A DNA stretch of 64,000 nt from Comamonas badia DSM 17552 (GTDB lineage: Bacteria > Pseudomonadota > Gammaproteobacteria > Burkholderiales > Burkholderiaceae_C). The notes beneath the pieces were generated by a model. The model worked only from the letters and a program-made list of their open reading frames with translations, was not told the DNA's origin and searched no databases. Numbering within the stretch: the first letter of the stretch is position 1; each line of letters opens with the position of its first letter. Made by a program: the position numbers and the translations under genes. Positions 15,752 through 19,913 of this stretch are shown piece by piece. Location: the NCBI RefSeq assembly GCF_000484635.1, contig NZ_AXVM01000001.1:186001-250000 (forward strand), written 5' to 3'.

Positions 15752-16917
<1,166 letters not shown>

Positions 16918-16924
16918 TCACCGC

Positions 16925-17647
16925 ATGACAAGTACCGAAGCACCGCGCGAAATCGCGCCTGGCCTCGTCGTGCAGGGCATCGCCACGCCGCTCTGCCTGG
17001 GCGATTTCAAACTGCTGGCCTGCGACATGGATTCGACGCTGATCAGCATCGAATGCGTGGACGAAATCGCCGCCGCCGTCGGCAGGAAGGCCGAGGTCTC
17101 GGCCATCACCGAAGCGGCGATGCAAGGCCATATCGCCGATTACAAGGAAAGCCTGCGCCAGCGCGTGGCGCTGCTCGCGGGCGTGACGCTGGCGCAGCTC
17201 GAAGCCATCTACGCCGAGCGCCTGCGCATCAACCCCGGCGCCGAGGCGCTGATGCGGGCGGCGCAGGCCGCGGGCCTGGCAACGCTGCTGGTCTCGGGCG
17301 GTTTCACGTTTTTCTCGGACCGCGTCAAGGCACGGCTCGGCATCCGGTTCGCGCGCTCCAACGTGCTTGAAATTTCCAACGGGCGCCTGACCGGGCGCAT
17401 GGTGGACCAGAGCTGGGGCGACATCTGCGACGGCGCCGAAAAGCGCCGCGCCCTGCTGGAGCTGGCCTCCCTCATGGGCATCGCGCCGCAGCAGGCGATT
17501 GCCATGGGCGACGGCGCCAACGACCTGCCCATGATGGGCGTTGCCGGCCTTTCCGTGGCCTACCACGCCAAGCCCGCGGTGCGCGCGCAGGCGAATGTGG
17601 CCATCAACGAAGGCGGACTGGACCGCCTGTTGGACGTTTTTGCATGA
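16925..17647 (+). CDS. serB: Phosphoserine phosphatase
   Basis: HAD-superfamily phosphatase performing the last step of serine synthesis. The 240-residue protein has the nucleophile motif ACDMDSTLISIECVDE (catalytic DxD), motif II (LLVSGGFTFFSDRV), the Lys region, and motif III (AMGDGANDLPMMGVAG). Length and motifs match SerB without the N-terminal ACT domain found in some relatives. It is seven bases downstream of the deaminase gene and likely co-transcribed. Confidence 0.95.
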   Translation: MTSTEAPREIAPGLVVQGIATPLCLGDFKLLACDMDSTLISIECVDEIAAAVGRKAEVSAITEAAMQGHIADYKESLRQRVALLAGVTLAQLEAIYAERLRINPGAEALMRAAQAAGLATLLVSGGFTFFSDRVKARLGIRFARSNVLEISNGRLTGRMVDQSWGDICDGAEKRRALLELASLMGIAPQQAIAMGDGANDLPMMGVAGLSVAYHAKPAVRAQANVAINEGGLDRLLDVFA

Positions 17648-17729: not shown

Positions 17730-17764
17730 CAGCAATGCAAAATCACACAGAAAGAGGGAGCACC

Positions 17765-18740
17765 ATGACCAGCGACACACCGCCGACTTGGGAAGAGCAA
17801 CTGGGCGAGCAGGCTGCTGCTGCCCTGGCAGCCAACCCATCCCTTCCCCGATCGCGCCAGCGCCCGACGCTCACGCTGATCAGCTGGAACCGCTCGGTGG
17901 CGGATTCACAGAAGGTCTACCGGATCGAGCACGGCGCACGCCCCAGTGACCGCTACGTGTTGCTGGTATCACCGCAAGACTTCCCCGACGCAAGCGCCGA
18001 CGAGGCCGCGCGAATGCAGGCCATGAAGGCCAGGCTGGGACCGCGCACCGGGCGCGTCATCCTTGACGTGCTTGGCCAAGGCCGGGTTGGCGGCCGTTCG
18101 TTTTTCATCGTGCCGCACTGCAGGCCGCTGCCGCACGGACGCTTCGCGGGCCGCATCGCGCGCTGGCGCGCGCAAGGCCCGGTACTGCAGTGGCTGCGCG
18201 AGGTCTGCGCGCTGGGCGTCGGCACACCGCACACCGCACACCGCACACCGCACACCGCACACCGCACACCGCACACCGCACACCGCACACCAGGAGTTTC
18301 TCGCTTCTCTCGCCGCCTTGCAGGACATGGCCGCGCTGCCTGATGGGCTGCGCCGCGCCGCACAGGAGCAGGCACGCCTGCTGAATGCGGGCGAGGTGCG
18401 CGCCCACCACGTCCCGATGCACGGCGACCTGTGGAAAGGCAACATCCTGCGCCAGCACGACGGCAGCCTCGCACTCATCGACTGGGCAGGCAGCGAAGTC
18501 CAGGGCTATGCGATGTACGGGCTGATCCGCGCCGCCATTTCGCTGGGCGTGTCGCGGCGGCGCCTGGCCGTCGAGATCGAGTGGCATCGCCAGGCCCTGG
18601 GCGGCTCAAGACACCTGCCGGAGCTGCACCTGCTGGGCGCGCTCGGGCACTACGCACGGCACCTGGGGGAATTTCCGCCGGATCGATTCGCCACGTCGGC
18701 GCAAGAATGTTACGCCGTGTTCCTGTCGGCGCAAGCCTGA
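17765..18740 (+). pseudogene. APH/choline-kinase-like phosphotransferase split by a 7-bp tandem repeat (probable phase-OFF allele)
   Basis: The first half (17765 to a stop at 18341-18343, 192 residues) and the second half (frame of 18063-18740) are two pieces of one kinase. The second half carries the phosphotransferase Brenner motif HGDLWKGNILRQHDG, then LALIDWAGSEVQG with the metal-binding Asp. The frames switch inside the tandem repeat 18223-18291. As sequenced, translation enters a wrong frame after the repeat and stops; loss of one 7-base unit (or gain of two) would restore a 322-residue protein. Start ATG 17765 has a good GGGAG ribosome site. Substrate unknown; the family includes choline and aminoglycoside kinases. 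A glycosyltransferase begins six bases later. It could equally be a dead gene or an assembly error in the repeat. Confidence 0.78.
18223..18291 (+). repeat. Heptanucleotide tandem repeat (CACACCG, 9 full copies plus 6 bases)
   Basis: Sixty-nine bases of perfect CACACCG units. Since seven is not divisible by three, all three frames encode rotations of the same heptapeptide (HTAHRTP), and none contains a stop. The opposite strand is also open, giving GVRCAVC. Copy-number change by slipped-strand mispairing would therefore shift the frame of the surrounding kinase gene without any other damage. Unit counts congruent to 2 modulo 3 (5, 8, 11) read through; nine, as here, does not. Confidence 0.95.
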
Positions 18741-18746
18741 ACCACC

Positions 18747-19913
18747 ATGCCTGCAGCACACGCCATGTCCCATGCCTCAGCATGCCTGATCGTCTCTCCC
18801 ATTCCCGTCCTGCGCGCCGGCGATCAATGGCGCACGCTGGACCTGTGGGCGCGCGACGTGAACGCGCAATGCACGCAGATTCCCGTGACGCTGGTCTGCC
18901 CGGTCGCCGCCCAGCTGTCGCACCACCACGCGCCACTGGCCCCCGCGATCCGCGTCATCGCGCAGGACGACCGCGATGCGCTGGCACATGCCATCGCCCG
19001 CGCCCGCTTCGTGCAGATTCCAGGACACACAGGCTGGCGCAATTCGGCCCTGGCACGCCAGGTCCTGAAGCTCGCACGCAGCCAGGGCAAGCCGGTGTTC
19101 CTCGGCATCTCCAGCAACCGCGCGCGCACGGCGCTGCTCAACAGCCGCCAGCACGGTGTGGCACGCTACGCCCTGGGACTGCTGCGTTATGCCGACATCC
19201 GCTTCACCCAGCGCTGGCTGGCGCGGCGTTGCACCGGCGTTTTCGTGGTCGGGGCCGGGCTCACCGCGCTGGTGCGCGGTGCCAACGCCAACGTGCATGT
19301 GGGCATTGCCAGCTGGGTCAGCGCACAGGACATCCAAACCGAGCGCCCACCCGCGCCGCCCACACTGCGCATCTGCATGGCGGGGCGGCTTGAGCCGATG
19401 AAGGGCTTTTCCGTCGGACTGGCGGCGCTTGAAGCCCTCAAGGCGCGGATGGCCATGGACATCACGCTGATCGGCAGCGGGCCCGAGGAAGCGGCGCTCA
19501 AGGCAGCCGCATCACAGCGCGGGCTGCACGTGCGGTTTCTCGCGCCCATCGCCTACCCCGGGCCGTTTTTTGCGCTGCTGGACCAGCAGGACCTGGTCTT
19601 GCTGACCAACCTGAACGACGAGCAGCCACGCCTGGTGTTCGACGCGCTGTGCCGCGGCGCCCTGCCCGTATGCCCCGATGCGGCGGCCTATGCCGCGCTC
19701 GGTCTGGACCGGCTCCTGCTTTACCGCCAGGGCGATGCACAGGCGCTGGCACAATGCGTCCGCGGTCTTGAAGATCCCGATGTGCGCGGGGAATTGCGTG
19801 TGCTGTCCGCCGCACTGCTGCAACGCCATACCCTCGATGCCATGCATAGCGATCGCCTCGCATGGATGCAGACTTCGGCCGCACGTATTGGCTCCGCACC
19901 AGCCAGCCCCTGA
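18747..19913 (+). CDS. Glycosyltransferase, GT4-like
   Basis: A 388-residue glycosyltransferase with GT-B character. The C-terminal domain opens RICMAGRLEPMKGFSVGLAA, the usual sugar-nucleotide domain entry of GT4 enzymes, and continues with ITLIGSGPEEAALK; the later DEQPRLVFDALCRGALPV is the acceptor/donor loop region. The donor and acceptor are not recognisable. An alternative start is ATG 18765. It follows the repeat-split phosphotransferase after six bases, so the pair probably acts on one surface polysaccharide or lipid, and switching the kinase frame may also affect its expression by polarity. Confidence 0.8.
   Translation: MPAAHAMSHASACLIVSPIPVLRAGDQWRTLDLWARDVNAQCTQIPVTLVCPVAAQLSHHHAPLAPAIRVIAQDDRDALAHAIARARFVQIPGHTGWRNSALARQVLKLARSQGKPVFLGISSNRARTALLNSRQHGVARYALGLLRYADIRFTQRWLARRCTGVFVVGAGLTALVRGANANVHVGIASWVSAQDIQTERPPAPPTLRICMAGRLEPMKGFSVGLAALEALKARMAMDITLIGSGPEEAALKAAASQRGLHVRFLAPIAYPGPFFALLDQQDLVLLTNLNDEQPRLVFDALCRGALPVCPDAAAYAALGLDRLLLYRQGDAQALAQCVRGLEDPDVRGELRVLSAALLQRHTLDAMHSDRLAWMQTSAARIGSAPASP

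Follow-up and report, generated by a model that had tools for sequence, protein, structure and literature searches.

We found an array of ten perfect GCACACC heptamers inside a kinase gene of Comamonas badia DSM 17552, with the N-terminal and C-terminal parts of the gene on either side of it in different reading frames. We give a probability of roughly 0.6 to the reading that this is a phase-variable (contingency) locus based on a simple sequence repeat (SSR) and now OFF, which would control the kinase and possibly the adjacent GT4-type glycosyltransferase (GT). The analysis covered the window, a stretch of 64,000 nucleotides (contig NZ_AXVM01000001.1, positions 186,001 to 250,000) to which all plain coordinates refer, and related genomes designated by G numbers, G000 being the window's own genome.

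A heptamer array divides a kinase gene between two reading frames

The kinase gene and its neighbours lie on the forward strand in the following order.

16904..17647, + strand: upstream HAD phosphatase, SerB-like (PF12710, 72.8 bits); a neighbour, not considered part of the switch
17751..17760, + strand: Shine-Dalgarno-like sequence AAAGAGGGAG ahead of the kinase ATG at 17765 (anti-SD duplex −7.7 kcal/mol)
17765..18343, + strand: N-terminal part of the kinase gene, which reads across the array and stops 16 codons past it, giving 192 aa in the present sequence (from the ORF list; the N half aligns to four homologues)
18222..18291, + strand: GCACACC array, ten perfect copies (TRF score 140), the sole site in its genome with at least three copies
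18294..18740, + strand: C-terminal part of the kinase gene in another frame (EFLASL ... HGDLWKGN ... IDW ... stop; PF01636), aligning to homologues
18747..19913, + strand: GT4-type glycosyltransferase, 6 nt past the kinase stop (PF00534, 29.9 bits), with a weak Shine-Dalgarno sequence of its own (−1.7 kcal/mol)

TRF reported the array as 10.0 copies with period 7 and 100% match; the nine CACACCG units plus six bases described in an earlier note on this DNA (18223-18291) are the same stretch minus its first base. That note had also placed the N-terminal half and the HGDLWKGN half in different frames, and indeed the C-terminal ORF, which contains HGDLWKGN and stops at 18738-18740, is shifted by +1 relative to the N-terminal ORF, which stops at 18341-18343 and has an alternative start at ATG 17735. 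The joined product of 322 residues given there agrees with a start at 17765. The Shine-Dalgarno score was taken over the 22 bases before the ATG against the anti-SD, and 4% of 500 random 22-mers from the window reach −7.

Past the array, 148 codons can be read in the kinase frame before a stop, against 16 and 30 in the other two frames; the homologues described below confirm the 148-codon frame as the full kinase frame. By coordinate arithmetic, this frame is restored by unit numbers divisible by three, and the window has ten. The locus thus presents the picture of a frameshift-type SSR, that is, a long perfect non-triplet SSR within an ORF, with one frame giving the full protein and the others stopping early. 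It is true, as noted earlier, that all three frames of the repeat encode one heptapeptide without stops, but this is generic to any unit length that is not a multiple of three, and the absence of stops alone is particular to the array. An ATG in the C-terminal frame lies at 18327, 14 nt ahead of the OFF-frame stop, and re-initiation there is conceivable.

In the mechanism that we propose, slipped-strand mispairing in (GCACACC)n would add or remove whole 7-base units, and one unit number in three would keep the two parts of the APH-fold kinase in a common frame. Ten units would be an OFF state, in which translation is predicted to stop 16 codons past the array, ahead of HGDLWKGN and IDW. We infer that such slippage occurs in living cells, that it is reversible, and that the protein tolerates the resulting loop lengths.

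Homologues are intact and carry no array

The C-terminal part of the kinase was matched in five of 60 relatives, own genome included (G000, G001, G002, G003 and G005; E 0.001), all of them from the window's genus. At the same threshold G004, G006, G007 and G008, that is four of the nine genus genomes, gave no kinase match, suggesting that loss of the kinase is tolerated, which counts against a contingency locus. Kinase profile A1 matched eight of 399 family genomes (E 1e-8), the own genome and G002 among them, in a draw that apparently does not include G001, G003 and G005.

The four same-genus homologues (G001, G002, G003 and G005) are uninterrupted and lack a tandem array at the corresponding site. 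Their linker between WLRxx and EFL is 13 residues (39 nt) long in all four cases, against 88 nt in the window, and the excess of 49 nt corresponds to exactly 7 units. Growth from about three units would therefore explain both the length and the frame, without a need for any further indel there. Six more distant homologues, with 28-37% identity to that of G002, align through the linker region as well, some with two additional residues, and this difference in linker length fits a loop. We take the linker to be a surface loop, in which in-frame lengths of the array should be tolerated. This assignment comes from the alignment, because searches of solved structures gave no useful template: none was found with profile A1 at 0.001, and alignment A2 at E up to 1 returned ten sequences, the best of which were designed repeat proteins matched over short pieces, with weak kinase matches to the fructosamine-3-kinase-like 3f7w (E 0.43) and a 4-hydroxytryptamine kinase (E 0.97).

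The array could instead tune loop length or GT expression, through polarity or re-initiation at ATG 18327, and not switch the kinase, the two halves perhaps being made as separate chains. The position of that ATG just before the OFF-frame stop is in keeping with this idea. However, kinases of the APH fold need both lobes, and a split kinase was seen in none of the ten aligned homologues, and we regard this explanation as very improbable.

Both halves of the window's kinase look undamaged. Among residues on which the other four sequences agree, the window keeps 36/37 in the N half and 60/62 in the C half, while the same count for the intact homologues gives 36/37, 36/44, 36/41 and 36/42 (N) and 60/62, 60/63, 60/64 and 60/67 (C). 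In either half, it is third codon positions at which the window and the homologues differ most, as is also the case among the intact homologues, and comparison of the halves with the four same-genus homologues revealed no damage elsewhere in the gene. At 52-61% identity between the window halves and these homologues, this is a distant comparison for decay. The possibility raised in the earlier note, that the homologous gene in relatives is broken in other places too, was not borne out: four intact homologues lack the repeat, the break consists of whole units, and we found nothing else damaged. As read from these sequences, the comparison says that the frame break is recent or reversible, and the homologues are too distant for it to tell which.

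A recent one-way inactivation would be compatible with part of these data. In that case the tract grew in a dispensable gene and left the frame, and decay is now starting, with no selected switching. The missing kinase match in four of nine genus genomes fits such a course, whereas the state of the two halves, neither of which shows decay, does not.

The array stands out from the repeat background of its genome

GCACACC at at least three copies occurs at a single site in the 3.68-Mb genome, and a genome-wide family of this repeat was therefore rejected. For the SSR background we surveyed the window together with 20 stretches of 20 kb each, in total 464,000 bases or about one eighth of the genome. 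In this sample the runner-up among perfect heptamer tracts has 2.57 copies, hexamer tracts reach at most 4.17 copies and mononucleotide runs at most 9, and besides the GCACACC array there is no perfect tract of more than 26 bases with units of 1-12. The array is thus far beyond the SSR background of the sample, which counts for a contingency locus, and at the same time a single long SSR in one eighth of the genome gives no hint there of a wider contingency programme, which counts against it.

No second copy of the array in a kinase gene was found in the own genome, in the scan of the named genomes or in the 399 family genomes. The scan of named genomes, from which close records may be missing, yielded one distant gammaproteobacterial MAG, and a search of plasmids yielded short matches only, the best of them to Variovorax. 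Two of these 399 have the GCACACC unit at at least four copies, the own genome and G347. The latter belongs to another genus of the family and has six copies in the CCGCACA register (L045:3421-3462) at a site unrelated to the kinase, so the heptamer unit as such can occur independently of the kinase.

The array is known as one allele from one assembly, which also counts against a contingency locus. The unit count in this assembly might be wrong, through read slippage or assembly, in which case the cells would be in frame and the gene intact with a repeat-lengthened loop. Repeats are prone to sequencing error and the genome is a draft of 24 contigs; however, the array is located 204 kb into a contig of 862 kb, and its 70 bases fit within one ordinary short read. 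We consider a miscount improbable.

Lin and Kussell, as cited in PMC4692102, reported suppression of SSRs in the middle of ORFs, and the mid-gene position of the array accordingly counts against a contingency locus. This position, being unusual for an SSR (PMC4692102), and the fact that the sampled eighth of the genome has a single long SSR both favour the one-way inactivation described above. Against it, the ten perfect copies with zero point mutations suggest a young or active array, and the homologue in G002 has a different slippage-prone tract. Taken together, we think a one-way loss rather unlikely, and retain the phase switch as the preferred reading.

The kinase is an APH-family member next to a glycosyltransferase gene

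The C half of the kinase matches Pfam APH (PF01636) with 29.4 bits at a cut-off of 23.2, and the G002 homologue matches it with 37.6 bits; seven of the ten members of alignment A2 match APH at E 0.01, and the N half alone matches no family in Pfam. Of the earlier description as an APH/choline-kinase-like gene, the APH part is upheld and the choline kinase part is not (Choline_kinase 12.5 bits, cut-off 29). Since the families that A2 members match at E 0.01 do not include Choline_kinase either, membership of the choline kinase or LicA group was rejected. We likewise rejected an aminoglycoside-resistance APH, NCBIfam resistance models matching neither window piece at E 0.01. The G002 homologue scores 17.1 bits with NCBIfam APH(3') (cut-off 205), and that of G003 scores 16.4 bits with the macrolide-binding ATPase MABP-1 (cut-off 800).

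Orthologues of the GT follow directly after the kinase in G002 (68% identity) and G001 (65%), and in G002 the likely start of the GT overlaps the stop of the kinase in the sequence ATGA. A GT4 gene adjoins the kinase in seven of 11 loci (G000, G001, G002, G003, G231, G170 and G381), which agrees with the kinase/glycosyltransferase pair proposed before; in G005, G366, G223 and G227 there was none among the scanned neighbours, in a survey with crudely called genes that covered part of the neighbours. The surroundings of the G003 kinase include several glycosyltransferase genes as well as an ABC transporter and a WecG/TagA/CpsF gene. The GT4 linkage and this context support a glycan-related kinase. 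Because the GT gene starts 6 nt past the kinase stop with a weak Shine-Dalgarno sequence, the OFF state may also reduce GT4 output. We infer this coupling, and likewise a role of the kinase in surface-glycan phosphorylation.

A second slippage-prone tract lies in the orthologous kinase of G002

The G002 kinase gene, whose ATG is preceded by a Shine-Dalgarno sequence (−8.4 kcal/mol), starts with ATG CCA GCC GA followed by C11, T and C7, the C11 extending over codons 4-8 with the frame open (G002:C12:82816-82826, L009 minus strand 2323-2313). C/G tracts of at least 10 number three in G002, the kinase C11 being the longest, and none in G000; the nine genus genomes (about 30 Mb) have 13, tracts less than 100 bases from a contig end being left out of the count. 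Rough arithmetic that does not allow for post hoc choice gives a chance of about 0.002 for one such tract to fall within any one of four homologous genes, each about 0.9 kb long. Among the best four tracts per unit length, none comparable was found in the kinases of G001, G003 and G005 or at the six distant loci, which counts against a contingency locus.

We inspected the reading frames at all 13 C/G tracts and scanned most of them with Pfam (L097 excepted). For several tracts the location is the 5' end of an ordinary gene or the bases immediately ahead of it (leucyl-tRNA synthetase, S4-domain protein, response regulator). Such cases make the G002 parallel weaker, and we grade the C11 as moderate support for a slippage switch. 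Ordinary-gene tracts of 10-12 were seen at L101:1549-1560, L081:1501-1510 and L086:1501-1510, and in G004 a VapE-like ORF has a tract at its 3' end. In G008, a C11 (L068:1501-1511) lies in the middle of a flagellin gene, between Flagellin_N and Flagellin_C; this is possibly a second phase-variable surface gene.

A broader reading, which we put forward tentatively and hold to be somewhat doubtful, is that the kinase-GT4 unit is a recurrent target of slippage switches. Two species would have separately placed unrelated SSRs in orthologous kinases, one a mid-gene heptamer and the other the C11 behind the start codon, and an environmental-type Burkholderiales lineage would in this way vary surface-glycan phosphorylation, perhaps under pressure from phages or grazers. 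If true, a GC-rich, Burkholderiales-type heptamer frame switch, with a possible second type in a sister species, would mark the kinase activity as worth turning on and off, and the substrate of the kinase could be found by comparing ON and OFF cells.

Comparison with known systems

Most known contingency loci come from pathogens with small genomes (PMC11475388). Heptamer tracts are described as over-represented and little studied, and those of Xanthomonas and Nostoc were judged unlikely agents of phase variation (PMC4692102). The word 'heptanucleotide' does not appear in the part of the review PMC11868660 available to us. Our PMC searches found no literature on heptanucleotide repeats in Burkholderiales, on phase variation with tandem-repeat frameshift in Comamonadaceae or on phase variation by simple sequence repeat in Acidovorax, and no such kinase switch appeared, by title and start of abstract, among the PMC matches listed; absence is unproven in each case.

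The licA gene of Haemophilus influenzae is choline-kinase-like and has its tract in its reading frame, and oafA of the same species is tied to glycan modification. The present locus resembles licA in combining a kinase-like glycan-modification enzyme with an SSR, and resembles oafA and pgt1, a putative glycosyltransferase gene, in that the SSR of a glycan-modification-linked gene lies away from the 5' end. It differs from licA, whose tetranucleotide tract (CAAT)n varies in unit number between strains (PMC2651432), in having a mid-gene heptamer known as a single allele, in a protein that does not reach the Choline_kinase cut-off. For oafA (GCAA, mid-gene) and pgt1 (GACA, 3' region) the authors suggest possible protein modulation over switching (PMC2651432), whereas here the out-of-frame states would lose the catalytic motifs. 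The promoter heptamers of hmw1A/hmw2A are similar in that unit number affects expression, but they bring about no frame switch (PMC2651432, PMC8262952).

The intragenic heptamers of H. influenzae, (AATTTTG)14 in the hmw1a gene of strain PittAA and (AACAACC)n in a homologue of HI1369, have a 7-base unit within an ORF, with frameshifts attributed to unit number, as proposed here; that of hmw1a likewise lies in mid-gene, at 3.5 kb of 7.3 kb (PMC2651432). They differ in their genes, hmw1a and one for a putative TonB-dependent channel, and in belonging to an SSR-rich species, whereas the present array lies in an APH-fold kinase gene of a GC-rich genome, in whose surveyed part it is the one long array. 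The earlier note had spoken of a new contingency locus; in view of these tracts (PMC2651432), the intragenic heptamer frameshift tract is of a known kind, and it is the kinase gene and the lineage that are unfamiliar for it.
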